Positions 9,918 through 33,901 of a stretch of DNA of 64,000 nt are shown piece after piece. The DNA lies in contig NZ_JABBNU010000008.1 in assembly GCF_012926615.1 (NCBI RefSeq), positions 1-64,000 on the forward strand. Reading direction: 5' to 3'. Every line of letters begins with the position of its first letter. Within the stretch, counting starts at the first letter, position 1. The translations under genes and the position numbers were made by a program. Source of the stretch: Marinigracilibium pacificum. Lineage in GTDB: Bacteria; Bacteroidota; Bacteroidia; Cytophagales; Cyclobacteriaceae. The notes below the pieces were generated by a model. The model had not been told where the DNA came from. It did not search any database and saw only the letters and a list, made by a program, of their open reading frames with translations.

Positions 9918-12900
9918 TTAATATTTCACAATCTTTATTCTATGCGATTTTTCTGGTGTCTGTACTTCAACTATATATAAGCCAGGAGTCCAGTTAGCTC
10001 CATCTATTTCTAGTTGCCTATCAGAAATTGATATATCTTTCATTAACCTTCCTTGAATATTGATAACTCTAAGACTTTCAACTTCCAGAGGTAGATTAAT
10101 TATTTTCCATCTACCTGAAGCACTTGGGTTAGGATAAACCACAATAGCCTCTTCATTCAAATCATCCCCAACAGATGTAATAATCAAAGGTCTTGTACTT
10201 ATATCCTGACAGCCATTTTCGCCAGTAACAGTAAGAGTTACATTAAAATCTCCATAATTTTCATAAACATGTTCAGGATTTTGATTTACTGAAGTTACAC
10301 CATCTCCAAAACTCCAAAACCAAGCAACAGCATCAGTACTTTGGTCTGTGAACAAAATCGACTCCTTATCGAAAATTGAAGATTCATCAGTACTTGCACT
10401 AAATAAACTTGTTGGCTTAGCTTTTAATGTTATTTCAGTTTGACCTTGAATATTATTACACCCAAATTGATTATTAGTTACAGTTACTGTATAAACACCA
10501 GCATCCTTTACAGTAATTATTCTTTCAGTTTCACCTGTAGACCAAAGATACTGGTTTCCATCCTGAACCGATAAAACAATAGAATCACCATCACAAATCG
10601 CTGATGAGCCTTTAGAAAGCCTAATTTCTGGATTGGCAATTACATTTACAACGGCTGGAGTTCTCACACTTTCGAATGAGTTTGTAGCATTTGACACATA
10701 TAAAATAGTATCGCTTTTAACATTTGACAAGGTAATTTGACTATTATTAGTCAATACAGGTTCGCCACCGGTAAAGTCTTTATACCAATTATACTTAGAT
10801 GCTCCTGTAGCTTTAATAGTAACATTAGATCCATAGCAAATATTAAGAGTATCAACACTCGGTTTATTTGCCTTCAAGGTCTGATTATATTTAGAATATG
10901 CTATTTCTGCAGATTCAACCAATTCAGACAGTTGATCACCTGCTATTAGAGCAAAAGCGACTTTTGTAGACTCACCTGCATTTATAGCTAGCGGACCAAT
11001 CGAAACTGTATGAGAAACATCATTACCATCTTCCTGTATACCTGCTCTTGGCTTACCAATACCAGATGTCATTGACTCAATTTTCTCTTCATCAGTATAA
11101 CCATCATATACTCCCCATGGGTTATCTGGGATATCAGAATCATTATCAATTGCCCAATAATTAAAGTCCCCTACCAATGTTTGTATACCAACATAAATAC
11201 TGTCTGATTCTTTTAAATTATGAACAAACCCTAAATTAATATTGCCATTAGAATAGTATCCAGCTCTATCCGGAGGCCCTACTAATTGAGAAATATCCCA
11301 ATCAGCGAATAATCCAACATAAAGATCATTCATATCTGAACCAGATTGATTCTCTATTTCATATTCGACAATGATATATTTATCATCTGGCTCTTCACCC
11401 CAAACCATAGAGCGGTAATTCACTAATACATTTAATGGATTATCAGATTTAGAATCATCAAATGATCCGAATGCTTCTTCAGTTGAAAACTCACCTGGTA
11501 CAATATTTTTAATTCTGTCAACTGGTTTAAAATCATCATCTGTATTTACTCCTTCTCCCCTAATATTATTTGAAAGTTTTCCACCTGAAGTCATTAAAAG
11601 TCCCATTTCAAATAATAAATTCCTATCATTATATAAAAAGCCAATCCCCTCTTCCGCATTAGTTAATGCATCATTAAACCCAATTCTTCCTTCTCCGGTT
11701 ATGGTAGAGGAAACCAAGTTCCTTTGGATGTTTATGTAAGTAGGGTTTAATAATAACGTGATATATTGATAGTCTTCATATGCTCCATCCGAGAATGAAA
11801 TCTTAAAAGGCACCTCTAAATCATTTGGAATATTTGCGGCAATTTTAATTCGGAATGGATTATCAATTGTGTTTAATTGAGTAGTACTATCAATTACACC
11901 AGGGAAAATTTCTGAATTTAAAATTTCAACAAAAGGTGAAACTGTAGAAATTGTCACTTTTGTAGCATTTGATGTTTTCCACAGGGTATTACTTAAAATT
12001 CCATAAGCTACTGCCGTATCACCTGCACTTGCAACTTGTCCGGTCCGTTCGTTCCTAATTTTCACATCATCAAAAGATAGCGAAGGTGTTTGAATAGTTA
12101 GAGCTTTAAAAACATCTAACCGTCCATACCCAAGCCTATCTCGATATTTGGACTCAACATTATTATAAATTGAAGGGTCAGCCGAAATTCTTAAAAGATC
12201 TAGAATTTGTTTTGGAGATAAGTCAGGATATTTACCCTTTACTAGTGCAGCAGCACCTGCTACAATCGGTGATGAAAAACTTGTCCCGTCTGTATATGTA
12301 TATGAATTATTATAATTAGTAGTATAAATTCTTGAACCTGGAGCTATAATATCAACATAATACCCATAATTTGAGAATGAAGACACTTTATCTTCGCTAT
12401 CTGAAGATGCTACAGCAAAAACCCCATCATATGCAGCTGGATATTCATTACTGTTCAAACCACTGTTACCCGCAGCGGCAATAAAAATAACTCCATTTTC
12501 GATACCATAATCAATAACTGACTGCCATATATCACTACGGCTTGTAGTACCAAAAGACATATTCACAATATCAGCACCTTGTTCAATCATATATAATACT
12601 CCAGCCAAAGTGAAGTATACACTACGGTCGTTTTGAGCCTGATTATCAAATGAGTGCTTAGTAATCAATAAACTTGCATTATAACCTACTCCGGCAATAC
12701 CTAAATTATTGTTTGTTGCAGCTGCAGCTACACCAGAAACAAGGTTACCATGGTTTGTCCCAGGTACATTTTTTAAAACCCCAACGCCTGGATCCCCTGC
12801 ATAATTAAGATTAGTTGTATCAGGCCCTGCAAAATCCCATCCTTGATAATTATCTATATAGCCATCGTTATCATCATCAATATTATTATTTGGAATTTCA

Positions 12901-13379
12901 TCATCATTAATAGCTAATTTTGATACCAAATCATCATGATTCAAATCTATTCCACTATCAACAATTCCTATGACAACATTCGCATTCGACTTAGAAATAT
13001 CCCATGCTTCAAATGCATTTATTAATTCTAAATAATACTGATTCCCAATAGATATATCATTAGGAGTTTCATATGTTTGATGAATAATATCCTTCTCGGC
13101 AAACTCTATCCTACCATCTGATTTAAGTGAGTTTAAAAAGGTTTTTTCAGAAATACCTTTTGGTTTAGTAACAAAATAAATTTCGTCAACAATGGTAGGC
13201 TTATTTCTAGCCTTAGCATTTATTATGCTCCTCGCTGAGTGAAACGAATAGCTTTCAGGAAAACTAACAGACAGCTCCTCTGTGGAGACAAAATCCCTAG
13301 TTTTTATTACATATCTTGTTTGAGCTTGTAATTGACCTAATCCAAAAAGCAAAACAATAAAAAGTATAAATTTTCTCAT
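9918..13379 (-). CDS. Secreted subtilisin-like serine protease (S8) with PKD domain and T9SS sorting tail
   Basis: An 1153-aa exported peptidase. A signal peptide covers about residues 1-19, then a propeptide-like region. The S8 domain (about 133-400) has the triad Asp141 (IVDSGID), His210 (TNHGNLVSG) and Ser367 (GTSFSSP), plus the oxyanion Asn305 (AAAGNSG). An Asp-rich loop near 164-176 (NNNIDDDNDG) looks calcium-binding. A long beta-rich middle, two Ig-like segments (about 835-985), a PKD domain (about 990-1060, with WSFGDG) and a C-terminal T9SS type A sorting domain starting at VYPNP follow. It is thus expected at the cell surface or outside. It is its own unit, downstream of and on the same strand as the SusC/D series. 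A peptide-generating role for those transporters is inference. Confidence 0.93.
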   Translation of the reverse strand: MRKFILFIVLLFGLGQLQAQTRYVIKTRDFVSTEELSVSFPESYSFHSARSIINAKARNKPTIVDEIYFVTKPKGISEKTFLNSLKSDGRIEFAEKDIIHQTYETPNDISIGNQYYLELINAFEAWDISKSNANVVIGIVDSGIDLNHDDLVSKLAINDDEIPNNNIDDDNDGYIDNYQGWDFAGPDTTNLNYAGDPGVGVLKNVPGTNHGNLVSGVAAAATNNNLGIAGVGYNASLLITKHSFDNQAQNDRSVYFTLAGVLYMIEQGADIVNMSFGTTSRSDIWQSVIDYGIENGVIFIAAAGNSGLNSNEYPAAYDGVFAVASSDSEDKVSSFSNYGYYVDIIAPGSRIYTTNYNNSYTYTDGTSFSSPIVAGAAALVKGKYPDLSPKQILDLLRISADPSIYNNVESKYRDRLGYGRLDVFKALTIQTPSLSFDDVKIRNERTGQVASAGDTAVAYGILSNTLWKTSNATKVTISTVSPFVEILNSEIFPGVIDSTTQLNTIDNPFRIKIAANIPNDLEVPFKISFSDGAYEDYQYITLLLNPTYINIQRNLVSSTITGEGRIGFNDALTNAEEGIGFLYNDRNLLFEMGLLMTSGGKLSNNIRGEGVNTDDDFKPVDRIKNIVPGEFSTEEAFGSFDDSKSDNPLNVLVNYRSMVWGEEPDDKYIIVEYEIENQSGSDMNDLYVGLFADWDISQLVGPPDRAGYYSNGNINLGFVHNLKESDSIYVGIQTLVGDFNYWAIDNDSDIPDNPWGVYDGYTDEEKIESMTSGIGKPRAGIQEDGNDVSHTVSIGPLAINAGESTKVAFALIAGDQLSELVESAEIAYSKYNQTLKANKPSVDTLNICYGSNVTIKATGASKYNWYKDFTGGEPVLTNNSQITLSNVKSDTILYVSNATNSFESVRTPAVVNVIANPEIRLSKGSSAICDGDSIVLSVQDGNQYLWSTGETERIITVKDAGVYTVTVTNNQFGCNNIQGQTEITLKAKPTSLFSASTDESSIFDKESILFTDQSTDAVAWFWSFGDGVTSVNQNPEHVYENYGDFNVTLTVTGENGCQDISTRPLIITSVGDDLNEEAIVVYPNPSASGRWKIINLPLEVESLRVINIQGRLMKDISISDRQLEIDGANWTPGLYIVEVQTPEKSHRIKIVKY

Positions 13380-13554: not shown

Positions 13555-13583
13555 AGAAAAGGCCACAATATTTTTGTGGCCTT
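13555..13583 (-). terminator. Terminator of SusC1-SusD1-lipoprotein operon
   Basis: AAGGCCACAA (13559-13568) and TTGTGGCCTT (13574-13583) form a perfect 10-bp stem. On the minus strand a T-rich run (complement of 13551-13560) follows. It closes the operon that begins at 19386. Confidence 0.85.
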
Positions 13584-13608: not shown

Positions 13609-14826
13609 TCAAGGAATATTTGATCTATAAGAAATATCAACTGTCGAATTTGTTATAGGATCATAGCCTGAATCAACAACCTCAGCATTTAAGCTAACAG
13701 CATCAATTGAGATTAAAACAAATTGATTTTCTCCTGTTAAATCAGATAGCTTCAATATTATATATCCTCCTAAAGAAGCTTTATCAGTTAAATTTGAGAT
13801 TGCCATAGAAGAAGGAGTCCCAGCATTAAAAGCATCCCTAACAGACTCATACCCAGAAAATTCTTCAGTAGGGTTAGGGATTACCCAAGTAACACCAGTA
13901 CCCATTTCTAACACTAACTCCCCTCCAATTATACCAAGACTAATATCTTCTGTATTTTCAGAATCAGGAATCAAAGAATCTTCGCTAAAATCAAACTTAT
14001 TATTCTCGGTATCAAGAATAGCAGGCTCTGTGTCGGTTGATGGAGTCACCACAAATTCATCAGGCAGTAATCTAAATACACCTTCAGTTGAAAGTGGAAC
14101 CTCTATTGCCAAGATATCAGTTGTTAAAGTATCAGATAAGCCATCTGTAGATACAGCTACAATTGCTACGGTAAAAGCCTCGCCAACGCCTAAATCACCT
14201 TCTGAAGGAAAAGTAAGAGTCTGAGACTTTCCAGAAAAATCAGTAACTCCACCAGCATCAACGGTAGCCACTGGTGAAGTTTGAAAATCTGCCCCTCCAT
14301 ACTTTGTAAAAAACTCAACTCTATCGATGCCTTTATTTTTTGTCTTAACATTATACTCAACATCCACATCACTCCCAAAAGTTGAAAGTCCTGGTGTTCC
14401 GGAATCAAAAGAAATTGGATTTGCAATAGACAAACCAAAATCTCTAAATGCAGATTCTCCTCCTGCAGTGGCAGTTGTTCTTAAAACTACTGTTCCACCA
14501 GCTTCTTCCAAGCTATCTACAGAAACAGATCCAAGGATACTGCTCCAAGGCTCATTTATTTCAAAAGCCCCTGATGACTCGGTAATTGAATAGGTATGCA
14601 TTTCACCACTAATCCATGATTGAACCGTTACAGATTCTGCTCCTGTGGCTTCAACAGGTATAATAACCTGATCTAAAGTAGTAAAAGTACCATTATACGA
14701 AGGAAAATCATCCCCAAAAGTAATGGGTACAACTGCTTTAGAAAATTTCAGCAATTCATCATCTTCGTCACAGCTAATAAACACTGCAAAGATTCCCAAT
14801 AAAAATATTTTTATATAACTTTTCAT
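13609..14826 (-). CDS. Surface lipoprotein in SusE-like position
   Basis: A 405-aa lipoprotein: signal peptide, then lipobox ending in Cys19 followed by Asp-Glu-Asp-Asp-Glu, an acidic stretch like the export signal that sends Bacteroidota lipoproteins to the cell surface. I use the ATG at 14826, which gives a proper signal peptide and 22 bases after the SusD gene. The longer open frame to 14895 would overlap SusD. The rest is beta-rich, with Ig-like repeats and no enzyme motif. As third gene after SusC and SusD it occupies the place of SusE/F-type surface binding proteins, so substrate binding is likely, but the sequence family is not recognised. Confidence 0.75.
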   Translation of the reverse strand: MKSYIKIFLLGIFAVFISCDEDDELLKFSKAVVPITFGDDFPSYNGTFTTLDQVIIPVEATGAESVTVQSWISGEMHTYSITESSGAFEINEPWSSILGSVSVDSLEEAGGTVVLRTTATAGGESAFRDFGLSIANPISFDSGTPGLSTFGSDVDVEYNVKTKNKGIDRVEFFTKYGGADFQTSPVATVDAGGVTDFSGKSQTLTFPSEGDLGVGEAFTVAIVAVSTDGLSDTLTTDILAIEVPLSTEGVFRLLPDEFVVTPSTDTEPAILDTENNKFDFSEDSLIPDSENTEDISLGIIGGELVLEMGTGVTWVIPNPTEEFSGYESVRDAFNAGTPSSMAISNLTDKASLGGYIILKLSDLTGENQFVLISIDAVSLNAEVVDSGYDPITNSTVDISYRSNIP

Positions 14827-14848
14827 AAATTCATAGGTCAAGGTTAAA

Positions 14849-16222
14849 TTAATCAAATACAGGTGGATTAACATTAAGGACCTCTTCACCTCCAACCAGG
14901 AATCCTTGTCTTTCTGAAGCAGTTGTTAAATTCTCTTCATTAAATAAGAACTCACTTTCCGGATAAATAAACCTTAATGGAATTGTATTCACATCATCTC
15001 CTGAATAAAAATCAGCCTGAGCATCACTTGGAATTTCTAAGGTTGGAAAACCTGTTCTTCTAAAATCATTCCAAGCAACTCTTGTATTTGGATATACTGC
15101 CTTGTACTTCTCATTCATGACTCCCTCCAAAGTTGGAGCAGATATACTTAAATTATATACAATTATATCCTCTTCAGGCACCCCGATCTCCTCCATATTT
15201 GCTCTTACAGCTTGTTGGACCATCATTGTTACATCCTCGCCATTACGAGCAGCTATTTCTGCTTTCATAAACAACACTTCAGCGTAAGTTATTAATGGCA
15301 AAGGAGATGCTTGACTTGCCCAATATCCTCCTACAAAATCATCATCAGGAGTAATATATTCGGCTCTGGGATCTCTGTCTAATCGACTAATGAAATTCGG
15401 GTGTGCCGCCATTGTCCCTGGTCTTTCAAAGGCTCCAAAAGAATATAATGGATTTCCACTTGTCAATGAACTAGCAAAAGGATAAAGAGCTGATCCACTA
15501 TTACTTGTGATAGCATTATCTAATGCTGCACTTGCGGCTGTATAATTTCCTTCTGTAAGAAGATATCTGGCTTTCAGACTATAAGCTGTAGCTATCCAAC
15601 TATCCGGATCACCACCAAACACTACATCATCACCACCAGGCTGAATATCTCCGCCGTCAGAGGATAACTCTGTTATAGCTTCATCTAATAATGTTTGTAT
15701 AGAAGTAAATATTTGTTCCTGAGTATCATAAATAGGACGAATATTTCCTTCATCGCCTTTAAACGCCTCCGAATATGGAATATCACCAAACATCGTAGTT
15801 AACATACCTAATGCTTCTGCCATATATATTTTAGCAATTCCAGAATAATATGGTGCATTTAATGCTCCCTCACCATTTGTTCTTTCTATAATGAAGTTCA
15901 GATCCTTCATGCCTCCACCATACATACCAAACTGCCAAAAGTTATCTAAAGCATTTCTAGGTATTAGATATTGACTGTACTGTTGCTGTTGAGCTTCCAG
16001 ACCTAAGAAGTATTGCATTACAATCCCTGGGTTTCTAGCACCTAATGCGCCACTATTAAAAGCCATATGTGCACTACCAGAAGGTAAAATCAGACTTAAT
16101 TCTGTTAGCTGATCTTCTGATAAGTTTCCTGGATCTATATTTGTCTCTGCCAAATCACAAGAGGAGGCAAAAACGAAAAAGATTCCAACGAGTATATATG
16201 AAATTTCTTTATTTATTCTCAT
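14849..16222 (-). CDS. SusD/RagB-like outer-membrane lipoprotein (SusD-like_2 type), pair 1
   Basis: A 457-aa lipoprotein (lipid anchor at Cys22) that caps the SusC barrel and binds the nutrient. It belongs to the SusD-like_2 group: a TPR-rich helical core, the segment LITYAEVLFMKAE near residue 310, and the C-terminal pattern PLRFIYPESE. The start ATG lies 11 bases after the SusC1 stop, so they form one operon with the lipoprotein gene downstream. It is more like SusD3 (29204) than SusD2 (19681). The substrate cannot be told from the sequence. Confidence 0.93.
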   Translation of the reverse strand: MRINKEISYILVGIFFVFASSCDLAETNIDPGNLSEDQLTELSLILPSGSAHMAFNSGALGARNPGIVMQYFLGLEAQQQQYSQYLIPRNALDNFWQFGMYGGGMKDLNFIIERTNGEGALNAPYYSGIAKIYMAEALGMLTTMFGDIPYSEAFKGDEGNIRPIYDTQEQIFTSIQTLLDEAITELSSDGGDIQPGGDDVVFGGDPDSWIATAYSLKARYLLTEGNYTAASAALDNAITSNSGSALYPFASSLTSGNPLYSFGAFERPGTMAAHPNFISRLDRDPRAEYITPDDDFVGGYWASQASPLPLITYAEVLFMKAEIAARNGEDVTMMVQQAVRANMEEIGVPEEDIIVYNLSISAPTLEGVMNEKYKAVYPNTRVAWNDFRRTGFPTLEIPSDAQADFYSGDDVNTIPLRFIYPESEFLFNEENLTTASERQGFLVGGEEVLNVNPPVFD

Positions 16223-16233: not shown

Positions 16234-19200
16234 TTAGAATGTAAATCTTAATGCAATTGAATAACCTCTTGTGTTTGGGTTATTAAAATAGTCTAAACCG
16301 AAACCATTACTTGTTTGAGTAAGGTTAGTTTCCGGGTCAATGCCTGTATATGGAGTAAATAAGAGCAGGTTACGACCTGTTAAAGTGATATCCAATCCAT
16401 CAAATGGCCCTGACTCCATGACGCTTCTTGGAAATGAATAGGATAAAGAAACTTGTCTCAACCTTATCCAGGACGCATCCTGAACATTTTCCTCCCCAAG
16501 AGTACCAAAACCGTATCTTTGCCATTTATTACTTCCAATCCCTATAGCATTATTATTCAAGTCAACTTGCTGTGTATTTGTAACATAAATTGGATTACCA
16601 GCATCATCGGTTCCTGACTGGACTACACCTTCAAAAACGACATTTTGACCAGCTTCACCGCGATAATCAGCAGTTTCTTGAGTAACTCCAAAATATTCTG
16701 CTACACCATTGGTACCATTCCAAACATCTCCACCATATCTAAAATCCCAAAGGAAGCTAAAATTAAAATCCCCAAATTGGAATGAATTACTAATCCCCAT
16801 CAACCAATCAGGATTAGGATCTCCTATTATTTTGGGGTCGGCAGCTTGTAAAGGAAATCCATCAGTACCGATTATTAATTGACCATCATCCGTTCTTTGA
16901 AACCCTTGTCCAAATAAAACTCCAAATGGCTCTCCCTCTATAGCTCTGGATGAAGTACTAGTAAATCCATTTAAAAATATGTTATCTATACCTTCAGCTA
17001 ATTCTTCAACAGTGGTTTCATAAGCCGTAAAGTTCAAGCTAATATCCCAACTAAAATTATCAGACTCATAAGCAACTCCATTTAATACTAGTTCAATTCC
17101 TTCATTACTAATTAAACCTGCGTTTTGGATTCTGTTCAAATACCCTGAAGACGAAGAGATATCAACCGGAATAATCTGATCTTTTGTCTCTGAATAATAA
17201 TAAGTAACATCTAAGCCTAATCTATTATCAAAAAACTTTAAATCGGCACCAACTTCAAATGTGCTTGTTAATTCAGCTCGTAAATTATTATTGGCTAACA
17301 CCCCATTTTGTTCAAAAGCATTATTCCCTAAAAATGGGAATTGAATAACAGCATCGGCAATAAATCCATCGCCACCACCAACTGCTTGTGTAAAGTAATT
17401 TTGTGTGGCATACAATGGTGCATCATTACCAACTTGACCATAACTGGCTCTAATCTTACCATAAGAAAGGAATGAACTTTGCATATTAAAGGCTTGAGTA
17501 AAATCAAAACCTAAACTTACTGCAGGGTAAAAAAATGAATTATCTCCTTCTGGTAAAGTTGATGACCAATCATTTCTAGCTGACAAGTTTAAGAATAGAA
17601 AATTTCTAAACCCTAATTTTACATTTGCAAAAACCCCAACAAGCTCTCTTTGATTTATATTTTCGAATGAAACTACATCTGAAGCATTAGCTATATTATA
17701 AAAGCCAGGTTGACTCAATGTATTACCTATCACTGTATTAATTCGAACATTACTTTTATAATAGTTATGACCTAGTAAAGCATTAATCGAAAAGTCTCCA
17801 TCAAAATCCTTATTATAAGTTATATAGAAGTCAGAATTTAAATCCCTACTATAAATATTATCATTTCTAATCTGGCCTGGATTCCAATCTGGAACAATAT
17901 CCACTCTCCCTAATCTTCTGTCCGAATACTGATCAATACCCAATTTATAAGTAGCTTTTAAGTTATCTATTATTTCATAATCAAAACTGACAAAACCAAT
18001 TATCCTATTTACTTCATCAGTTGTATAATTCTTATTAACTACCCAAAAGGGGTTGTCATAAATACCATTACGGTAACTTCTTTGTGTTCCATCAGGGTTA
18101 GTGTAAGTTGCAGGATCATCTGCGGCATCTTGTCCAGTTTTACCGTTACCTATATCAAATGATGGGGCATTTCTAACTAACCCAAGCATGATACCTCTCA
18201 AATTAGAACCTTGTTGCATTCTAACTCCACCAGAATTCACATAGTTTGCAGAAATTGAAGCAGTGAACTTCTCTGTTAAATCTGCAGAAATATTAGATTT
18301 AAATGAATACCTCTCGAATTCTGAATTTGGAGAAATACCTTCTTGCCTTAAATATCCGGCTGAGGCATAATATCTAACATTTTCCGTCCCTCCTCGAACT
18401 GAGATATTATTATCAGAATTCAAACCCCTAATGAAGAAAGTTTCAAACGAATTATACCCATTCAAGTCAGGGTTTTCATCGATTCTTTCTCCCCAAGAGA
18501 ATCCTTCAAAAGTTTCAGGACCTCTAAAGACACCATTTCTACCCTGAGAAAACTCTCGTTGTAAATCTGGTAACTTGTTGACTTCTGTTACTTCAAAACT
18601 CGTAGAAAAGGTTATGGAAGGCTTTGTATTTTTAACACCTTTTTTTGTTGTGATAATAATCGCTCCATTTGCTGCCCTTATACCATATAATACAGTAGCT
18701 GCAGGACCTTTCAAAACACTAATAGATTCAATATCTTCAGGGTTAATATCTACAGCTCTATTTGAAGTATTGGTTCCATCAACTCCAGGACCATTATCAG
18801 CAGCGGTACCAAATTGACTATTATCAATTGGAACACCATCAACAACAAATAATGGAGAGTTATTCCCGAAGATTGAGGTATTACCTCTGATTCGTATTGA
18901 AGAGGATGAACCAGGGTCTCCGGATGAGGAATAAACATTAACACCAGCGGCCTTAGAATTCAAGGCATTTACCAAATTTGGTTCTTTTGATTTGGTTAGA
19001 TTATCTCCTTTTACCTCTTGAACCGAATAACCTAGCTCTCTTTGACTTTGCTCAATTCCTACTGCAGTTACTACTACTTCACTTAATTGTTGTACATCTT
19101 CCTGCAAAACAACATTAATTGTACTTCTAGCTCCAACAGGAATTTCTTGCGAAACATATCCAATTGAAGAAAATACCAACGTGACATCAGAAGAAGGAAT

Positions 19201-19386
19201 ACCTATGGAATAATTTCCTGAAATATCAGTAACAACTCCTCGGCCAGTACCTTGAATAAGGACATTTACACCTGGTATGCCTTCACCATTGGCACCTGTT
19301 ACGGTACCAGTTACAGTACTCTCCTGAGCTAATGTTTGGAACATTAGCAATAGAAGAGCACAGAGAAACAGTAAACTTTTTCTCAT
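16234..19386 (-). CDS. SusC/RagA-type TonB-linked outer-membrane transporter, pair 1
   Basis: A 1050-aa TonB-dependent receptor. Signal peptide (1-20), a CarboxypepD_reg-like domain (about 25-105, GIPGVNVLIQGTG), a plug with the SusC signature (about 110-245, VLYGIRAANGAIIITTKKG), then a 22-strand barrel ending in aromatic Phe (LRFTF). No STN domain is present, so it is not of the kind that signals to an anti-sigma factor. It heads an operon with SusD1 and a surface lipoprotein. Its leader holds a strong inverted repeat (19427-19453) and a TCTAAACC motif shared with the other two SusC genes. Its signal peptide is nearly the same as that of SusC2. Confidence 0.95.
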   Translation of the reverse strand: MRKSLLFLCALLLLMFQTLAQESTVTGTVTGANGEGIPGVNVLIQGTGRGVVTDISGNYSIGIPSSDVTLVFSSIGYVSQEIPVGARSTINVVLQEDVQQLSEVVVTAVGIEQSQRELGYSVQEVKGDNLTKSKEPNLVNALNSKAAGVNVYSSSGDPGSSSSIRIRGNTSIFGNNSPLFVVDGVPIDNSQFGTAADNGPGVDGTNTSNRAVDINPEDIESISVLKGPAATVLYGIRAANGAIIITTKKGVKNTKPSITFSTSFEVTEVNKLPDLQREFSQGRNGVFRGPETFEGFSWGERIDENPDLNGYNSFETFFIRGLNSDNNISVRGGTENVRYYASAGYLRQEGISPNSEFERYSFKSNISADLTEKFTASISANYVNSGGVRMQQGSNLRGIMLGLVRNAPSFDIGNGKTGQDAADDPATYTNPDGTQRSYRNGIYDNPFWVVNKNYTTDEVNRIIGFVSFDYEIIDNLKATYKLGIDQYSDRRLGRVDIVPDWNPGQIRNDNIYSRDLNSDFYITYNKDFDGDFSINALLGHNYYKSNVRINTVIGNTLSQPGFYNIANASDVVSFENINQRELVGVFANVKLGFRNFLFLNLSARNDWSSTLPEGDNSFFYPAVSLGFDFTQAFNMQSSFLSYGKIRASYGQVGNDAPLYATQNYFTQAVGGGDGFIADAVIQFPFLGNNAFEQNGVLANNNLRAELTSTFEVGADLKFFDNRLGLDVTYYYSETKDQIIPVDISSSSGYLNRIQNAGLISNEGIELVLNGVAYESDNFSWDISLNFTAYETTVEELAEGIDNIFLNGFTSTSSRAIEGEPFGVLFGQGFQRTDDGQLIIGTDGFPLQAADPKIIGDPNPDWLMGISNSFQFGDFNFSFLWDFRYGGDVWNGTNGVAEYFGVTQETADYRGEAGQNVVFEGVVQSGTDDAGNPIYVTNTQQVDLNNNAIGIGSNKWQRYGFGTLGEENVQDASWIRLRQVSLSYSFPRSVMESGPFDGLDITLTGRNLLLFTPYTGIDPETNLTQTSNGFGLDYFNNPNTRGYSIALRFTF

Positions 19387-19392
19387 ACTCTT

Positions 19393-19403
19393 AAAGGTTT
19401 AGA
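19393..19403 (-). promoter_or_regulatory. Leader motif shared by the SusC genes (copy 1)
   Basis: TCTAAACCTTT on the minus strand, ending seven bases before the SusC1 start codon. Related TAAACCTAAA copies precede SusC2 (24141-24152) and SusC3 (33905-33923). The function is unknown; see findings. Confidence 0.4.
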
Positions 19404-19426
19404 TTTAAAATTAACACCAATATTAA

Positions 19427-24128: not shown

Positions 24129-24140
24129 ATTAAATAAAGA

Positions 24141-24554: not shown

Positions 24555-24583
24555 TAAAAAATAAGCGCCTAGAGGCGCTTATT
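24555..24583 (-). terminator. Terminator of the BNR-protein operon
   Basis: AATAAGCGCCT (24560-24570) and AGGCGCTTATT (24573-24583) form a perfect 11-bp stem with a two-base loop as read, followed on the minus strand by TTTTTAATTA. Confidence 0.88.
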
Positions 24584-24594
24584 CATAGTAATTA

Positions 24595-27500: not shown

Positions 27501-28665
27501 GATGGGCTAGAACTATATTATCATACCATCCTTGACCTCCTAAAAAATCAACATTCGTATTGATATCGTCAGCTCTATTTGATTCTATTACTAAATTCCA
27601 AGTTGCGGCCCCATCATCAGAAATATATAAATCAGATTCATTTCCGGATTTACCTCCTTCAACTGAAGCAAACAATCTATCAACCTTAACAGGTGAAACT
27701 GCTATTTCAACCCTTCCTGAAGGGTCCATTCCCGTTTTTGATAAAGACCAAGATTCACCTTCATCAATAGATTTCAACACCCCAAGATTCTTTTCAGCGG
27801 CATAAATTACATTAAAATTACCAGGCTCGTAATCTAAATCCTGTACATAAGATCGTTGAGCAGTATATACTCTTTTCCAAGATAACCCACCGTCTGTACT
27901 TTTAAATATCCCACTATTAAATTCTCTAGCATTTAATGGGTCATTATTAGCACAAACTAAAAGAGTTTTTTCATCATCCGGATGAACAATTATTCTACTT
28001 ATAGTTTGAAAATCATCATTAGCTGTCGCTTCCAATTGGAACCAATCATCCCCGCCATTTATTGATTTAAAAACACCTGCTCCTTTAATAAACCCTGCCG
28101 AAGTTGAAAATCCTTCCCCAGTACCAGCATATAATACTTTCGAATTTGAAGGTGCGATAACTAGCCAACTAATTGATATGTTAGGAAGGTTAGAAGTTTT
28201 ATTAACCCAACTATTTCCTGCATTGGTAGTTTTCCAAATACCCCCACCTACGGAACCAGCAAACCATGTATTTCCTGAGGGATCATCCGGGTCTACCACG
28301 ATCCCTCTTGTTCTTCCAGGAACGTTAGCAGGACCTCTTTCGTCAAAGCTTACAGCTTGCGACCTTATTTGAGGTTGATTTAATAGCTTGTTATTTTCAT
28401 TTACAAGATAATTAACATCATAATTAGGGTGTTGATCACCATACTTTGTACGAACAGCATTATAATATTTAAGATACTCATCAGGTTTATCAGCTTTATG
28501 AGCACCATTTTGCTTTGATTTCACTTTATTATTCCACCAAAATTGAAATTGATCATCATATTGAAAATTTTGACTACCAAATTCAGTGGGATTCCCTGAA
28601 TCACTAATTTTTAAATAAACAATTACAAGGCAAAACAACCCTGTTAAAAGTAAAAGTTTTCTCAT
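24595..28665 (-). CDS. Large BNR/sortilin-type beta-propeller protein with T9SS sorting tail
   Basis: A 1356-aa exported protein. A hydrophobic N-terminal segment (about 3-20) serves as signal. At least nine Asp-box (BNR) motifs of the form S/T-x-D/N-x-G-x-S/T-W are spread over about residues 145-970, for example STDGGLSW and TSDYGQTW, which is the pattern of VPS10/sortilin-like and xyloglucanase-like propellers. A domain with carbohydrate-binding look follows, and the end (from VYPTILKNGEE) resembles a T9SS type A sorting domain. No catalytic residues can be assigned, so enzyme or binding protein are both open. It starts one base after the stop of a small lipoprotein gene, hence the same operon. 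Confidence 0.8.
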   Translation of the reverse strand: MRKLLLLTGLFCLVIVYLKISDSGNPTEFGSQNFQYDDQFQFWWNNKVKSKQNGAHKADKPDEYLKYYNAVRTKYGDQHPNYDVNYLVNENNKLLNQPQIRSQAVSFDERGPANVPGRTRGIVVDPDDPSGNTWFAGSVGGGIWKTTNAGNSWVNKTSNLPNISISWLVIAPSNSKVLYAGTGEGFSTSAGFIKGAGVFKSINGGDDWFQLEATANDDFQTISRIIVHPDDEKTLLVCANNDPLNAREFNSGIFKSTDGGLSWKRVYTAQRSYVQDLDYEPGNFNVIYAAEKNLGVLKSIDEGESWSLSKTGMDPSGRVEIAVSPVKVDRLFASVEGGKSGNESDLYISDDGAATWNLVIESNRADDINTNVDFLGGQGWYDNIVLAHPFKKDVVYVGGVNLWKFTISDNQTETEPTVLNVASDGAKLFDLVEFGGEFIGGKIGKGNLSPSHFTSIEIKFGPGISQKAHRFVVPPGSGPGVAKEDYSYVNYVEVPFQVWDVDNNRQLMVSFRDQQRDGKYNLITLNTTEGQENQQSREYLYIHNIDYNESPSNQLSVDGGHEVSQLYFLWPYLAESASWEPENLPKSTFRINWGALNGRIRETEDISDAYFQFSGENAFRQTTGATTVSGLHPDHHNLVPLIVDEEERKWKIINANDGGVYVSNVDTNPGENDGDWTNAGNGYNTTQFYFVDKAPGENRYIGGTQDNGTWMTPFSMNSSSTTNYRRALGGDGFGVVWHYTEPTKVLGSVYYNDINKSINSGSSFQSAITGITDNNSSNAPFITKLENSNSQPDVVYAVGRSGIWRTNDFADSWKLINPGDTWRLSTFAQVKISEATPMVVYAGAGMVEGVSNIFVSKDNGLSFEPVNNYADVDMGLISGLATHPKDPSIAFALFSFAKSPKVLKTSDYGQTWADISGFGTSSSSNNGFPDVAVFDLQVMPFDPNVIWVGTEIGIVESTDGGLSWHKLNSNLPSVSVWDIKVEDDQIVMATHGRGIWSVTLSELPTTILAPQLNSVTSSLRMDPIFNLELRNDFDSVGLLINNYDTLYVKEIPSGTTSILVELSGKDNNLDFFLIGYKDGLAYPGKSYQSTLVSWPSSVDQYTNYFSSITNDFNNKEFKQLSSAIFNGKPLQTSHNYKDNTEYIGTLNYPIKVKESDAFISYKDIALVEPYLTQNNLLKDYVVVEASLDGFNWTSLIEPYNASYQNSWLELFEAGDSPSMSDFEEHYIDLLDFFNPGDEILIRFRMTTDSNVNGWGWLIDDLIIQSTNAYLSVDPDLRTDVVIYPTILKNGEEITIKGVEGEISYLLYNTSGQVVQSGLINDSKSVIIKKCFSPGIYILNVYDKKENILWKNKIIIN

Positions 28666-28666
28666 A

Positions 28667-29098
28667 TTATTTTTGGTTAAAGATTGGTTGATAAGACTTT
28701 GTATTGGTTTTTAGGTTATAAAAATAATCACTTGTCTCGGTGTCAGACTGAATACCTTCGAACCTGTCAACTTTAATTATTTCATCAGTCATCCATGACA
28801 CACTTCCATTTGGTATATGGTCATGATAATGAATGGAATCAGAATGGTCAAAAACATAAAATTCATTATCCTTTCTAGTGTCTATTTTATTGACACATTG
28901 AAGAAGAGTCATAGTATTATTAGAATTTGGTAGAGTTATCAATGTATCACATGACAAGTTATCAACTATTATCGAATTACATTCATTATGTGAATTTTGA
29001 GTAATTTTTGAAGAAGTGCATCCAAAAAAAAATACTACAACAATAAAAAAAAACAATAAAAACCGTAATACCACAATTAATCCAGATTGAAAGACCAT
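28667..29098 (-). CDS. Hypothetical lipoprotein
   Basis: A 143-aa lipoprotein: a very hydrophobic signal segment rich in Phe and Val (about 8-26), then lipobox FFGC with Cys27. The mature part is short, with CNSIIVDNLSCD and a segment rich in His and Asp (DHSDSIHYHDH). I use the ATG at 29098; a TTG four codons earlier is also in frame. It is the first gene of a unit with the large BNR protein, one base apart, so it may help anchor or chaperone that protein. No family recognised. Confidence 0.6.
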   Translation of the reverse strand: MVFQSGLIVVLRFLLFFFIVVVFFFGCTSSKITQNSHNECNSIIVDNLSCDTLITLPNSNNTMTLLQCVNKIDTRKDNEFYVFDHSDSIHYHDHIPNGSVSWMTDEIIKVDRFEGIQSDTETSDYFYNLKTNTKSYQPIFNQK

Positions 29099-29146
29099 TA
29101 AAATTAACAATAGACTATGGAATTATCCTAAATATCAAAAGAATAA

Positions 29147-29178
29147 AATAAAAAAAGGCCACCTCTATGAGGCAGCCT
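29147..29178 (-). terminator. Terminator of SusC3-SusD3 operon
   Basis: AGGC (29156-29159) and CCTC (29162-29165) pair with GAGG (29169-29172) and GCCT (29175-29178), with a CA/CA internal loop. On the minus strand a T-run (complement of 29148-29155) follows. Confidence 0.75.
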
Positions 29179-29203: not shown

Positions 29204-30649
29204 TTATTTAGCATCCCACCAAACTCGAGCTGTAAGCTCATCAACCTGATCAGCATTAGTAACAGAAGTACCGTTTACACTTTGCTCAACATTTGTATAT
29301 TGCGCACGCAAAGGAATTTCATCAGCATCCAATACGCTTTCAGGTGCTGGAACAAGAGCCGGATAGTCAAGTCTTCTCCATTCGGCAAAAGCCTCAAGAC
29401 CATTACTGTAAAGAGAAACCCACTTCTCATAACCAATTACTAGTTCCCAAGGCTTGGAAGCATAAGCAGCAGTTTTCGCTGTTGCGTAAGTAACAGCATC
29501 TGCATTATCTACGCCCCACTCAGCCATTGAAGCCATGATAGCATCATTGAACTTATCTGCAGCAACACCTGAAACAAAGCCTCTTTCAATAGCTTCAGCT
29601 TCTAGGAAAAGAACTTCAGCATAAGTCATCCACTTAGCAGGAGCTGTTGCTTCTCTTAAAACATCAGATGGTCTTGAACTTACACTTTTTAATGCAAATG
29701 CATCACCATCAGATAATCCGTAAGGCATACCAACAATATTGCCATCGATATTTTCTTCAGCGAAGAAAGGTAATCTTGGATCATTGTATAACTCCATTGA
29801 ATCTGTTAATGTTTTTGAAATACAAAAATCATCTCGTACAGGAGCTACTTTAGCATCTAAATGCCAAGGGTTAGCAATACGTTGATCTGCACCAAATACA
29901 TAGTAAGGAGCCTCTGCATTTGATGTAAGAACACCACCTGCAATAGCTTCACTAGCTAAAGTAGAGGCTCTATTTGCATCCTTATCAGAAATCCTCATCG
30001 CTATTCTTAACTTAAGAGAGTTTCCAAATTTCTCCCACATTGCCATGTTTCCATCGTAGATATTATCACCTTCAGTAAAACCAGCCGCAGTCGGAGTAAT
30101 AGAAGAAATTGCAGTATTAAGATTAGTGATCAATTGATCATAAACACTCTCTTGAGTATCATATGCAGGAGAAGTAATTTCAGAAATTCTGAAAGCCTCA
30201 GAATAAGGCACATCACCCCACATATCAGTGATAGCCTGCATTGCAAACACTTCCATGATAGTAAGAGTTGCTAACCTATTATTTGTAACTGCATCACCTT
30301 GAGATTCTCTTTGAGACTCTACTATTTTCTTTGCTTCCATTATGTCCATTAATGGAGAAGAATACCAGCTATTCCAAGATCCATCGAAAGCATCCGGAGT
30401 TATCTGATATCTTGATTCAGAAGCATATTCATTCTGAGATAAATGTTGAACCATCAACATACCAAACTCAAAGCTCAGAGCACGACCCCAATAAAGATCA
30501 GACAAATTATTCTGAGCATTCGCCAATAATGAAGCCGCTTCAACACGAGTTGGTGCATTCGGGTTTTCATTTAGCTCTGCTAGGTCACACGCACTTGTCA
30601 TTCCAAGAATAACAAAAAATACGGCTAATATTTTAAAAGATATTTTCAT
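29204..30649 (-). CDS. SusD/RagB-like outer-membrane lipoprotein (SusD-like_2 type), pair 3
   Basis: A 481-aa lipoprotein with anchor Cys21 (SACDLAELNENPN). It is of the SusD-like_2 subgroup, like SusD1: CDLAE.N start, MWGDVPYSEAF near residue 142, WMTYAEVLFLEAEA near 345, and the C-terminal PLRAQYTNVEQSVN pattern. It lies 51 bases after SusC3 and is followed by a terminator. It should cap the SusC3 transporter. Pairs 1 and 3 thus look like related systems and pair 2 like a different one. Confidence 0.93.
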   Translation of the reverse strand: MKISFKILAVFFVILGMTSACDLAELNENPNAPTRVEAASLLANAQNNLSDLYWGRALSFEFGMLMVQHLSQNEYASESRYQITPDAFDGSWNSWYSSPLMDIMEAKKIVESQRESQGDAVTNNRLATLTIMEVFAMQAITDMWGDVPYSEAFRISEITSPAYDTQESVYDQLITNLNTAISSITPTAAGFTEGDNIYDGNMAMWEKFGNSLKLRIAMRISDKDANRASTLASEAIAGGVLTSNAEAPYYVFGADQRIANPWHLDAKVAPVRDDFCISKTLTDSMELYNDPRLPFFAEENIDGNIVGMPYGLSDGDAFALKSVSSRPSDVLREATAPAKWMTYAEVLFLEAEAIERGFVSGVAADKFNDAIMASMAEWGVDNADAVTYATAKTAAYASKPWELVIGYEKWVSLYSNGLEAFAEWRRLDYPALVPAPESVLDADEIPLRAQYTNVEQSVNGTSVTNADQVDELTARVWWDAK

Positions 30650-30700: not shown

Positions 30701-33700
30701 TTAGAATTTAAAGCTTAGATCAAATCCAAGAGATCTGGTTGTAGGAACCTGTGCATTCTCTAAGCCTTGAAGGTTACCAGCACCATTAACACCTTGAGGA
30801 TCAAGGTAAGGAAGGTCGCTGTAAAGAATTGCAAGGTTTCTACCAAGAACTCCAAAAGTAACATCTCTAAATGGAAGGTTTCCAAGAACAGACTTAGGTA
30901 AAGTATAGCTTAATCTAACTTCTCTTAACTTCACAAAAGATGCATCATATACGTTTGGAGTAGCTATATTATAAAAAGTCTGGTAATAGGTTTGTGGATC
31001 GACCGGAGTTGTGTTCGGAGTACCATCTAAGTAAACACCATCAACAATTAAACCATTTTCACGAATACCATCAGCAGCTGTTTCAGGGTGCATTCCAGAG
31101 TATTTAGCCCACTGTAATGAAGTTGAGTGAATAACTCCTCCACCCTGGAAATCGATCAAACCAGTTAAAGAAAGACCTTTATAAGAGAATGTATTTCTGA
31201 AACCACCAGTGAAGTCCGCAACAGCGCTACCAAAATAGGTTCTACCTGCATTTGAAGGAAGCCCGTTAGCACCAACCACAACTTCACCTTTATCATTTCT
31301 TACAAAATCATTACCAAAGAATGCCATGTAAGGATATCCTTTTTCAACTCTAACATCTCCAGCCCAAGTAGTTCCCAAAATAATACTTTCAACACCAGGA
31401 GCTAATTCTACTACCTCATTATTATAAGTAGCAAAGTTTAATGACATATCCCAAGAGAAATCTTCTGTTTGAACAGGAGTACCTCTTAACATTACTTCGA
31501 AACCAGAGTTTCTCATCGAACCACCGTTAATATACTGCGAAGTATATCCAGTTGTTGCAGAAGTAGGTACTGTAAAGATCTGATCTCTTGTAGTTTTGTC
31601 GTAATAAGTCACGTCAAATGATAGTCTGTTCTTGAAGAAAGCCATTTCCAGACCGAATTCTACCTCATCAGTTTTTTCAGGCCCAAGGAACGGGTTAGCA
31701 TTCTGATTAGGCACTGTAAATCTTGGAGTACCTATTGCTGGCTGAACTGAGTCAAATATAGGAGAAAGAGCAAATGGGTTTGGCGCGTTAGCTGTCTGAC
31801 CAAATGATGCTCTTACTTTACCAAAACTAATAAGATCACTGTTTTGTAAAGATCCTAATTCAGTAAATACAAAAGCAAGTGAAGCAGATGGGTAGTAGTA
31901 CTGGTTTTCATCCTCTGGAAGAGTAGAAGCCCAGTCACTTCTAAGACCTAAATCTAAGAACAACATACTTTTGTAACCTAATGATGCAGTCGCAAATAAT
32001 GAGTTGATTCCTTGCTTAGATTCATAAGTACTTGGGATTGGTGCATCTACAGAGTTGTCAATGTTAAACCATCCTGGAATTACAAGACCACCGTTTGTTT
32101 GAACGGTAACACGTGTTGCACCTTGTCTCATGATATTACCTCCAGCCATTGCATTCAATGAGAAGTCAGAACCAAAGGTCTTTTCATACAATAATTTTGC
32201 TTCGTAGTTATTCTCAAAAAATGTTCTTTGAGTTTCACTGTAGTAAGCCTGATCTACTGAACCGTTAGGTAATCCTTCTTGAGCTCTAAAAGTAAAACCG
32301 TCTCTCATAGCCTTAAGATTTACACTAAGACCGTCAACGATTTCGTAGTTAAGATTTACGTTACCAAAGAATCGATCACGAGAATCTTCTTGAAGAATAT
32401 TATTTCTTAACCAGTATGGGTTATCAAAGAAATAAGGGGCTGGCTCAAAACCAACAAGATTTCCGCTTCCATCTATGATAGGACCTGTAGCGTTCCAAGT
32501 GTACTGTCTTCCATCCTTCCAAGTGTAATTATCTTCTAAACGCTTAACATCAAGCTGTGTCTGCCACCACTGAGTGAAAGCCTGCATTGGGTTTTTGTTA
32601 TCATAACCAGTAGCGTTACGTCCGTTTGCAGCCTGGTTAACAAAGTTACCAGCTGATGAAACTGTTAATTTTTCAGATAAGTTATAAGAAACGTTGAATG
32701 CTACTGTGTTTCTCTGAAGGTTAGATACAGGAGTGATACCATCCTGATTTAAGTTTGTATAAGAAACTCTGAATGTACCATTGTCATTTCCTCCACTAAA
32801 AGCAACTGAATTTGTAGCTGTTAGACCAGTTTCGAAAAACTCTGAATAATCATTAGCTGGTGCTGTCCAAGGACGAGTCTCACCATAGTTTGCAGACTGA
32901 GGATCCCAAGAATCCCAATGTCTAACCATTGTATTCGGATCATATTTTGGTCCCCAAGAACCATCTTTTGAATAAATTGGAGCAAGAAAATCAACAGATT
33001 GGCCGTTAATTTGCTCTGTAAATTCAACAAAACCAGAACCAGTTGGAGAAATAGCTCCTCCTCCATATTCTTGCTGATATTCGATAAGAGCAAGTGGCTT
33101 TTCGAATGTCCAGCTAGAGTTAACTGCAACTCCGATTCCTTTAGACTTAGCTCCTGACTTAGTAGTAATTAAAATCACACCATTAGAACCTCGAGTACCG
33201 TAAAGTGCAGTTGCAGAAGCACCTTTCAACACAGTTACAGACTCTATATCCTGAGGGTTAATATCAGCAGCAGCGTTACCATAATCGTAAGCACCACCAC
33301 CAAAACCTCTTTGCTGAGCTGTAGTAGCGTAGTTATCATTGTTGATTGGCATTCCATCAACTACGAATAACGGCTGGTTTTCACCAAGGAAAGAGTTAAC
33401 ACCACGAATTGTAATACGTGAAGAACCACCTAGAGCACCTTGAGTACCCTGGATCTGAACACCAGCAACCTGACCTTGTAAGCTGTTTACGATGTTAGTT
33501 TCTTTTGTTTCAGCAAGTGCCTCACCAGCTACGTTCTGAACTGCAGAACCTACTGCTCTTTTGTCTCTTGAAACACCGAGCGCAGTAACAACTACCTCAG
33601 TTAATTGTTGTACATCTTCCAGTAATACAACATCAATTGATGATTTTCCTGCTACAGAAATTTCTTGTGTCAGGTAACCAATTGAAGAATATTGTAATAC

Positions 33701-33901
33701 TGCTTCACCCGAAGGAACTTGTAAACTATAATTTCCTTGGATGTCAGTCACCACACCGAGAGTCGTTCCTTTTACAAGGACGTTAACACCCGGTATGCCT
33801 TCTCCATTTTCGCCGGTTACTGTACCGGATACCGATTTCTCCTGCGCCTGTGCTATAAAGCCAAGGACACAAAAGAATGATAAGAGGAAAATTCTCTTCA
33901 T
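30701..33901 (-). CDS. SusC/RagA-type TonB-linked outer-membrane transporter, pair 3
   Basis: A 1066-aa TonB-dependent receptor: signal peptide (1-19), CarboxypepD_reg-like domain (about 24-105, GIPGVNVLVKGTT), SusC plug with VVVTALGVSRDKRAVG and TALYGTRGSNGVILITTK, then a barrel ending in LSFKF. No STN domain. It is the first gene of a two-gene operon. Its leader has the CCTAAACCTAAAC motif, a tandem version of the motif before SusC1 and SusC2. It is closer to SusC1 than to SusC2 in the plug region (both VVVTAxG). The substrate is unknown. Confidence 0.95.
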   Translation of the reverse strand: MKRIFLLSFFCVLGFIAQAQEKSVSGTVTGENGEGIPGVNVLVKGTTLGVVTDIQGNYSLQVPSGEAVLQYSSIGYLTQEISVAGKSSIDVVLLEDVQQLTEVVVTALGVSRDKRAVGSAVQNVAGEALAETKETNIVNSLQGQVAGVQIQGTQGALGGSSRITIRGVNSFLGENQPLFVVDGMPINNDNYATTAQQRGFGGGAYDYGNAAADINPQDIESVTVLKGASATALYGTRGSNGVILITTKSGAKSKGIGVAVNSSWTFEKPLALIEYQQEYGGGAISPTGSGFVEFTEQINGQSVDFLAPIYSKDGSWGPKYDPNTMVRHWDSWDPQSANYGETRPWTAPANDYSEFFETGLTATNSVAFSGGNDNGTFRVSYTNLNQDGITPVSNLQRNTVAFNVSYNLSEKLTVSSAGNFVNQAANGRNATGYDNKNPMQAFTQWWQTQLDVKRLEDNYTWKDGRQYTWNATGPIIDGSGNLVGFEPAPYFFDNPYWLRNNILQEDSRDRFFGNVNLNYEIVDGLSVNLKAMRDGFTFRAQEGLPNGSVDQAYYSETQRTFFENNYEAKLLYEKTFGSDFSLNAMAGGNIMRQGATRVTVQTNGGLVIPGWFNIDNSVDAPIPSTYESKQGINSLFATASLGYKSMLFLDLGLRSDWASTLPEDENQYYYPSASLAFVFTELGSLQNSDLISFGKVRASFGQTANAPNPFALSPIFDSVQPAIGTPRFTVPNQNANPFLGPEKTDEVEFGLEMAFFKNRLSFDVTYYDKTTRDQIFTVPTSATTGYTSQYINGGSMRNSGFEVMLRGTPVQTEDFSWDMSLNFATYNNEVVELAPGVESIILGTTWAGDVRVEKGYPYMAFFGNDFVRNDKGEVVVGANGLPSNAGRTYFGSAVADFTGGFRNTFSYKGLSLTGLIDFQGGGVIHSTSLQWAKYSGMHPETAADGIRENGLIVDGVYLDGTPNTTPVDPQTYYQTFYNIATPNVYDASFVKLREVRLSYTLPKSVLGNLPFRDVTFGVLGRNLAILYSDLPYLDPQGVNGAGNLQGLENAQVPTTRSLGFDLSFKF

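Follow-up and report, generated by a model that had tools for sequence, protein, structure and literature searches.

What holds together about 24 kb of DNA that encodes three SusC/SusD pairs, a protease and a propeller protein on one strand, without a glycoside hydrolase or a regulator? The locus (positions 9918-33901, ten genes, all on the minus strand) lies in the first 64,000 nucleotides of contig NZ_JABBNU010000008.1 of Marinigracilibium pacificum (assembly GCF_012926615.1), the whole stretch being called the window here. A first-pass annotation had read it as a possible locus for protein or peptide utilisation. In our analysis it is probably an import slot, flanked on either side by a conserved housekeeping block, whose SusC-SusD-lipoprotein operons have been exchanged over evolutionary time. 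What is new is the extent: the slot is present in most of the family genomes examined, takes two SusD families in one to three cassettes, and the exchange appears to run behind fixed 5' ends. No report of such a slot was found in the literature searched, a result that says little about subscription journals.

A SusC/SusD slot at a conserved position

In the sampled family, which we take to be the Cyclobacteriaceae in the GTDB sense, the interval between an OmpA gene that follows lepA-folD-queE and the genes queD-lpxB-clpX is a SusC/SusD slot. Its anchors in the window are:

34161-36098, minus strand: OmpA/TPR/PD40 protein (Pfam), preceded by lepA, folD and queE; left anchor
8959-9378, minus strand: QueD/PTPS-family gene, followed by lpxB and clpX; right anchor

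The same interval between the same genes is found in G001 and G002, the two congeners of the window's own genome (G000), and in Marinoscillum furvescens (G009). The gene-order comparison in relatives that the first-pass annotation had proposed shows a position that is kept in most of the family genomes examined, with variable contents. In a wider survey queE was searched in 156 family genomes and matched in 146; from 80 of these, picked by queE similarity and genus and blind to SusC, up to 20 kb downstream of queE were taken (the stretch of G029 being extended with an overlapping locus). OmpA stands behind queE in 69 of the 80 genomes, and one of the other 11 stops at a contig end. A SusC gene comes directly after OmpA in 52 of these 69 anchored slots, and 55 contain a full-length SusC. 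For 39 slots the stretch also covers the far boundary (closed slots), and 37 of these hold SusC. Seven added genomes, partly found via SusD or propeller matches, bring the counts to 76 anchored slots in 87 genomes, 58 with SusC next, 62 that bear SusC (one of them, G131, doubtful) and 42 of 44 closed slots with SusC. By hand count, the closed slots hold one SusC in 33 cases, two in eight (including G001, where one is split, and G029, where they stand beside a further TonB receptor), three in the window and none in two. A Vps10 propeller gene is present in 14 of the 76 anchored slots. Outside the family, ten genomes were compared, each from a different family of the same order. Two of them lack SusC altogether, and the 29 SusCs of the others are all more than 20 kb from queE, the closest (in G039) being 24 kb downstream and on the opposite strand.

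In the one-contig genome of G001 (L055 and L056), frameshifts interrupt queE, OmpA and the second slot SusC, either through sequencing error or through decay.

Slot contents differ between species

Compared among the three congeners, the genes on either side of the slot share 73-94% identity; inside it, the propeller gene reaches 62-66%, the S8 subtilisin gene 64-69% and the SusC/SusD pairs 74/64%, 43/34%, 39/30% and 38/33%. The sole pair with an ortholog among congeners is SusC1D1, in G001 (the 74/64% match); the best matches of the others are at most 43/34%. Each SusC has its own nearest relatives: for SusC1 they are in the slots of G009 (63%) and G085 (58%) and, outside slots, in Lunatimonas (63%; the genus is represented by L. 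salinarum, G020) and G016 (55%); for SusC2 in the slot of G035 (62%) and in G004 (62%), on a contig without the anchors; for SusC3 in the slot of G006 (50%) and, outside a slot, in G011 (49%). Local duplication as the origin of the three pairs was rejected, paralogs within the genome being at most 41% identical. Base composition gives no strong sign of recent foreign DNA: G+C content is 0.28-0.40 in the slot genes against 0.33-0.39 in 13 flanking genes measured, and at third codon positions 0.16-0.25 against 0.23-0.31, the slot being somewhat lower.

Across the family, the SusD of the first cassette, typed via profiles built from slot SusDs, resembles PF12771 in 35 slots and PF07980 in 26, and this type changes at least six times on the tree of flanking genes, five of the changes being forced by well-supported branches. 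Both kinds are mixed in 9 of the 62 slots, the window included; a slot may hold up to three cassettes (G000, G143, G068), and two lipoprotein-like genes follow the pair in G002.

The susC 5' end and the body behind it

Where would the exchanged DNA begin? Sequence comparison points to a junction inside susC: in close relatives the leader, signal peptide and N-terminal extension go with the species and with the position in the slot, and the plug, barrel, SusD and lipoproteins behind them may belong to a different cassette, in many cases a distantly related one. The parts concerned in the window are:

30701-33901, minus strand: SusC1 gene, whole
33902-33961, minus strand: SusC1 leader, with the motif TAAACCTAAACCT at 33909-33921, common to the congeners
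33578-33901 (end approximate), minus strand: proposed fixed 5' part of SusC1, signal peptide and N-terminal extension to the TonB-box region
30701-33577, minus strand: proposed exchangeable part of SusC1, plug and barrel, BT2264-like
21126-24128, minus strand: SusC2 gene, whole
24129-24188, minus strand: SusC2 leader, with the motif TAAACCTAAATCT at 24138-24150
23805-24128 (end approximate), minus strand: 5' part of SusC2, signal peptide and N-terminal extension
21126-23804, minus strand: proposed exchangeable part of SusC2, of the RagA-like branch
16234-19386, minus strand: SusC3 gene, whole
19387-19446, minus strand: SusC3 leader, with the motif TAAATCTAAACCT at 19395-19407
19063-19386 (end approximate), minus strand: 5' part of SusC3, signal peptide and N-terminal extension
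16234-19062, minus strand: proposed exchangeable part of SusC3, BT2264-like

The junction falls at about residues 100-108, at LSEVVVTA, that is, where the CarbopepD_reg_2 domain ends and the TonB-box region lies (the TonB box was placed by comparison with PMC7782687). The first slot SusCs of the two congeners, G001_s1 and G002_s1, illustrate it: on the DNA level their leaders are 88% identical, the first 120 nt 96 and 93%, the next 120 nt 81 and 70%, and the remainder about 60%; on the protein level the first 50 residues are 98% identical and the body 43%. G000_s1 and G001_s1 have the same body, at 75% identity. A tree of 5' ends (positions -60 to +240) places the three congeners together with a support of 100. 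In the tree of bodies (residues after 110), G002_s1 joins the first slot SusCs of G166, G092 and G104 (support 100), and G000_s1 and G001_s1 group with Lunatimonas (L075), G009 and G085. Approximately unbiased (AU) tests put a price on each attempt to reconcile the trees: 106 log units are lost if the 5' ends are forced into the body grouping (p 7e-43), 165 if the 5' end of G002 is forced to join G166, G092 and G104 (p 7e-51) and 389 if the bodies are forced to follow the genus (p 2e-58). These rejections imply that there is no single history for the 5' end and the body of SusC.

Pairwise alignments give the same picture. BLASTN between slots of six genome pairs finds islands of about 150-640 bp at the SusC 5' ends. 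In the first cassette the alignment of the flank extends, with declining identity, as far as about 790 nt inside susC, and the remainder of a swapped cassette gives only short matches of about 45-120 bp. Unswapped cassettes align throughout (SusC1D1 of G000 and G001, the first cassettes of G116 and G032). Thirty-six pairs of first SusCs have flanks that are at least 75% identical, 19 with bodies at 50% or more and 17 below; the median leader identity is 77% in both sets, against 67% for 29 pairs of cassettes from different positions. With flanks of at least 70% the sets hold 29 and 38 pairs, with leaders at 67 and 76% against 67%, and 9 of the 38 change the SusD family. A change of type behind a single 5' end is clearest between G116_s3 and G032_s3 (leader 83%, first 50 residues 88%, body 29%). 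Cassettes of a single slot can also resemble each other in this way: G116 s3 and the neighbouring SusC share 82 of the first 100 residues (45/50 and 37/50) and 13 of the next 38, and s1 and s2 are 81% identical over the first 150 nt in both G169 and G143.

Several observations weigh against this reading or narrow it. With one genome per species, exchange is seen between species and genera. SusC does not come next in 18 of the 76 anchored slots: four have Vps10 first and then SusC, four meet an early contig end, two are closed without SusC and eight have other genes (G131 among them). Within the congener group of the 5' tree, G001 and G002 are joined with a support of only 80, and the clades of the AU tests were named only after the alignments had been seen. 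The leader comparison at flanks of at least 75% (Mann-Whitney p 2e-5) is made on pairs that are not independent, and only 2 of its 17 swapped pairs change the SusD family; at flanks of at least 65% the leader difference is gone (67 vs 68%, p 0.51), as is expected for DNA of such age. SusC N-termini are generally alike, those from mismatched positions still being 62% identical over 50 residues. First-cassette types are strongly clustered on the tree, with 6 changes against 19.8 in shuffles, meaning that most slot content is passed on by descent with an occasional replacement, and that swaps are not frequent. Finally, the case for a substrate is made of gene company and family resemblance only.

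Organisation of the locus in the window

The first-pass annotation had described a minus-strand block of about 24 kb with three SusC/SusD pairs, a subtilisin of the type IX secretion system (T9SS), a propeller protein and two lipoproteins, and open reading frames and Pfam matches bear this out. In the order of transcription the units are SusC1-SusD1, small lipoprotein-Vps10 propeller, SusC2-SusD2, SusC3-SusD3-lipoprotein and S8 subtilisin; the pairs were numbered from the opposite end in that annotation, whose SusC1-SusD1-lipoprotein is our SusC3-SusD3-lipoprotein. Besides the SusC genes, the locus contains:

29204-30649, minus strand: SusD1 lipoprotein, PF12771 (Pfam)
29156-29178, minus strand: terminator-like hairpin 3' of SusD1
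28667-29110, minus strand: small lipoprotein, start codon uncertain; it also precedes the propeller gene in both congeners
24595-28665, minus strand: Sortilin/Vps10-type propeller protein with a borderline T9SS tail
24559-24584, minus strand: terminator-like hairpin 3' of the propeller gene
19681-21105, minus strand: SusD2 lipoprotein, PF07980/PF14322 (Pfam)
19631-19654, minus strand: terminator-like hairpin 3' of SusD2
14849-16222, minus strand: SusD3 lipoprotein, PF12771 (Pfam)
13609-14895 (open reading frame; probable ATG at 14826), minus strand: third-gene lipoprotein of cassette 3
13559-13583, minus strand: terminator-like hairpin 3' of the cassette 3 lipoprotein
9918-13379, minus strand: T9SS-type S8 subtilisin with PKD and Ig domains (PF00082, 161.5 bits)
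9872-9899, minus strand: terminator-like hairpin 3' of the protease gene

A hairpin is present at each of the boundaries where terminators had been said to divide the units. The number of hairpins alone is not above chance (12 and 12 in two scans, against 8.5 and 11.1 in shuffles, each with a standard deviation of 3.2); the five at the boundaries are among those with the longest stems, and all are intergenic. All three SusCs pass TIGR04056 (658-784 bits, cut-off 368.25) and have CarbopepD_reg_2, a plug and the TIGR04057 signature, and the three SusDs combine PF12771 or PF07980/PF14322 with a lipobox cysteine, the latter judged by eye. As for the T9SS tails that had been proposed, that of the protease is clear (TIGR04183, 46.8 bits, cut-off 23), and that of the propeller protein is borderline (23.0 bits at the same cut-off). 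The cassette 3 lipoprotein is without a match in PDB, Pfam or NCBIfam, and a search of 58 other genomes found no relative. In all, the genome (4.96 Mb) has 20 SusC genes above the NCBIfam cut-off, three of them at the locus.

What the pairs may import

SusC1 and SusC3 best match BT2264 over nearly their full length (450 and 438 bits; the next solved SusC reaches 194 and 204), and cassette 3 has the SusC-SusD-lipoprotein order of the BT2261-BT2264 oligopeptide complex. As substrates of SusC1 and SusC3 we place peptides before glycans, with about an even chance of being right. Unlike in that complex, BT2263 is not the best match of SusD1 and SusD3, which score higher against several other PF12771 proteins, some of them glycan binders by name (140 bits to 5j5u against 89 for SusD1; 70 bits against 48 for SusD3), and the window lipoprotein has no matches. 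SusC2 is closest to the SusC of 8aa4 and to RagA (BT2264, 103.6 bits), and the best solved match of SusD2 is 3kez, named 'putative sugar binding protein' by its depositors.

An S8 subtilisin accompanies SusC/SusD in 11 of the 62 SusC-bearing slots (Pfam): those of the three congeners and eight others, behind PF07980-type pairs (G033, G036, G084, G119, G129, G151, G162, G170). Nine S8 proteins were scanned, these eight and that of G004; six have a T9SS tail and three are cut by the stretch end. In G004 an orthologous SusC2-SusD2-lipoprotein-S8 operon (L072) stands outside a recognised slot. Slots also hold one M43 peptidase (G059) and one penicillin acylase. Against peptides stand the PF12771 family itself, which includes proteins named as chitin and mixed-linkage-glucan binders; the place of BT2264 as the lone SusC of its branch among the solved ones listed; a GSDH-domain protein with a below-cut-off CBM_6 in the slot of G033; and the 51 of 62 slots in which S8 was not seen within the DNA examined, together with 11 other S8 genes elsewhere in the window's own genome (12 S8 matches, one at the locus).

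As the first-pass annotation had stated, no glycoside hydrolase or other carbohydrate-active enzyme (CAZyme) family is above cut-off in the 24-kb locus (Pfam and NCBIfam), nor is there a regulator (hybrid two-component system, SusR, extracytoplasmic function sigma or anti-sigma factor) among its ten genes (Pfam). The propeller protein scores 109.9 bits against NF045728 'glycosylhydrolase', below the cut-off of 175; its identity as a GH74-like enzyme was rejected as unsupported, the sole PDB match being weak (3b7f, E 0.0011). From the slots, 150 of 176 unassigned proteins of at least 120 residues were scanned, the 26 omitted lying for the most part in G131 or well downstream. The 25 of 69 families listed for these 150, a list beyond which weak singletons could hide, include one GH15 match and no regulator of the usual kinds; BT_2262-like_C is matched by two of the proteins. 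By size and N-terminus, the GH15 protein is probably one in G096 that stands beside trehalose genes and is unrelated to the slot. No glycoside hydrolase was found among ten of the 150 checked singly and ten larger proteins outside the 150. Proteolytic neighbours thus characterise the slot in some genomes, and in most there are few enzymes of any kind.

Could the three pairs, the subtilisin and the propeller protein still form a single locus and act jointly on protein? S8 and Vps10 are retained in the slot within the genus while the pairs change, and the BT2264-like SusCs, the S8 genes of other slots and the operon of G004 would all fit. The units, however, have their own terminators and separate relatives, and the pairs come and go singly between congeners; the S8 gene is absent from the slot of G009, Vps10 genes are on a contig other than that of queE in G011, G018, G019 and G035, and the glycan-binder names within PF12771 point elsewhere. 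We regard such a joint function as conceivable but rather doubtful. Of the first-pass reading, the peptide part is partly supported, by the BT2264-like SusCs and the S8 slots, and the notion of one locus is doubtful.

A polysaccharide utilisation locus with its enzymes encoded elsewhere seems unlikely. Most SusC/SusD pairs of known substrate import glycans, the best solved match of SusD2 bears a sugar-binding name, and the SusC-SusD core is that of such loci; unlike them, the window locus has neither CAZyme nor regulator, and the families listed for the slots add just the GH15 match. Nor do orthologs of the pairs always stand beside glycoside hydrolases in the contexts seen, an arrangement that the first-pass annotation had named as contrary to its reading (outside slots these contexts are gene orders, with a Pfam scan for L072).

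Two further kinds of slot genes were observed. FG-GAP/ASPIC-UnbV proteins of up to 1.1 thousand residues, some of them T9SS-tailed, stand beside slot SusC/SusD genes in L061, L102, L126, L133, L152 and L164 and are the second recurrent slot companion besides S8 proteases. In L123, L124 and L154, other TonB-dependent receptor-like proteins come after the SusC/SusD pair, each adjoining a protein of DUF4249 size; DUF4249 is matched by 8 of the 150 slot proteins (members not named).

Where the cassettes may come from

Similar 5' ends before different bodies could also reflect hidden paralogy: a longer ancestral tandem with similar 5' ends would have undergone differential loss, and no cassette would have come from outside. 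Tandem cassettes of one slot can indeed share 5' ends (G116, G169, G143), slots with up to three cassettes exist, and loss could run via deletion between the repeated 5' ends. One ancestral tandem would nevertheless have to hold all body branches of two SusD families over 62 slots, and relatives of SusC1 and SusC3 are also found outside the slot (L075, L076, L062); we think this origin improbable. Since deletion between 5' repeats is itself a 5'-anchored recombination, hidden paralogy differs in the source of the cassette and not in the junction. That nothing was exchanged, and that a resident SusC diverged very fast in its exposed part (for example under phage pressure) with its leader and extension under purifying selection, would suit conserved 5' ends before diverged bodies and is scarcely credible against body identities that are two-humped (35 of the 67 first-SusC pairs with flanks of at least 70% lie below 40%, 5 at 40-60% and 27 above 60%), a SusD family that can change behind one 5' end (G116_s3/G032_s3) and a G002 body nearer to other genera than to its own.

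Under exchange at the slot, which we prefer, cassettes would be replaced by homologous recombination between conserved susC 5' ends on one side and in the sequence behind the operon on the other. The newcomer would at once come under the resident leader and carry the resident signal peptide and N-terminal extension. The pairs would import large nutrients as SusC/SusD complexes do, perhaps peptides for at least part of them, and these could be supplied by secreted proteases such as the S8 subtilisin retained in the slot in this genus. More tentatively, in a model that we hold to be nearly as likely right as wrong, leader RNA, signal peptide and N-terminal extension would form a fixed, position-specific socket, to which plug, barrel, SusD and lipoprotein are joined as a cartridge at the TonB box; the N-terminal extension would be a host-side adaptor, serving TonB choice or assembly, and host-side control would lie in the leader element that the genes share. 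If this is true, the lack of a dedicated regulator in the slot would be accounted for.

The leader element

The element TAAAYCTAAAYCT lies 7-9 nt before the start codons of SusC1, SusC2 and SusC3. Across the genome this 13-mer is matched 14 times (the reversed pattern 5 times), with three of the matches at the locus and none before the 17 other SusCs. It also precedes all slot SusCs of G001 and G002, including the split second SusC of G001. Apart from that split gene, the strict 13-mer is found at 6 of 88 slot SusCs, all in the window's genus, at none of the 17 non-slot SusCs of the genome and at none of 26 other SusCs: it is a genus-level feature. A loose form of the leader motif is present at 16 of the 88 slot SusCs (shuffled mean 1.1); for SusCs elsewhere the counts are 1 of the 26 and 3 of the 17, and for genes of other kinds 21 of 970. 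Eleven further matches to TAAAYCTAAAYCT lie away from the slot in the window's own genome. A scan with a Bacteroidota promoter consensus gave two minus-strand matches, both within genes. For B. thetaiotaomicron, one report describes small RNAs of the FopS family that bind the start region of susC mRNA and are counteracted by RbpB (PMC11697453). By analogy, similar control at these leaders is a possibility.

Relation to known systems

The closest known system is the rag locus of P. gingivalis (ragAB, four alleles). Parts of the literature on ragAB describe distinct alleles, a highly conserved RagA N-terminus (signal peptide and CarbopepD_reg_2) and horizontal transfer (PMC11817032). As in rag, a SusC/SusD-type importer sits in the same place with different bodies behind a conserved SusC N-terminus, a pattern that we find between species. 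Unlike rag, which is one pair in one species group, the slot shows exchange between species and genera, two SusD families, one to three tandem cassettes and the inclusion of lipoproteins.

In the SusC/SusD shufflons of Bacteroides fragilis and B. thetaiotaomicron, one expressed 5' part is joined to different SusC bodies. The slot appears to differ from them in that exchange is between lineages, with no reversible switch; no silent copies were noticed, and no recombinase is found among the ten window genes or the 25 of 69 families listed for the 150 slot proteins (inverted repeats were not searched). PMC12548429 and PMC10939037 mention nutrient-receptor shufflons and inversions within or near SusC/SusD genes.

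The slot also bears on what the N-terminal extension does for SusC. According to one study, Bt1763 without it gave no detectable growth on levan, and a role in the choice between TonB orthologs was suggested (PMC7782687). The slot may serve as a natural domain-swap experiment on this question, in which domain and leader are kept and the transporter is swapped. It is also a place to seek the drivers of SusC/SusD turnover, be they nutrients or phages, and a marker position for comparing importer repertoires across a bacterial family.

Neighbouring genes

About 15 kb from the slot with its T9SS cargo, positions 49201-55292 encode, on the same strand, a PorU2-type putative T9SS sortase (876 bits, NF052324) and its PorV2-type partner (NF052325). 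A second Sortilin/Vps10-BNR propeller protein (43240-46056, 938 residues, 77% identical in the congeners) is weakly similar to that of the slot. An aminopeptidase-like protein (47849-48898, below the curated cut-off) and an amidohydrolase nearest to Xaa-Pro dipeptidase (39679-40968, 416 bits, below the cut-off of 500) are possible peptide-using enzymes near the slot.

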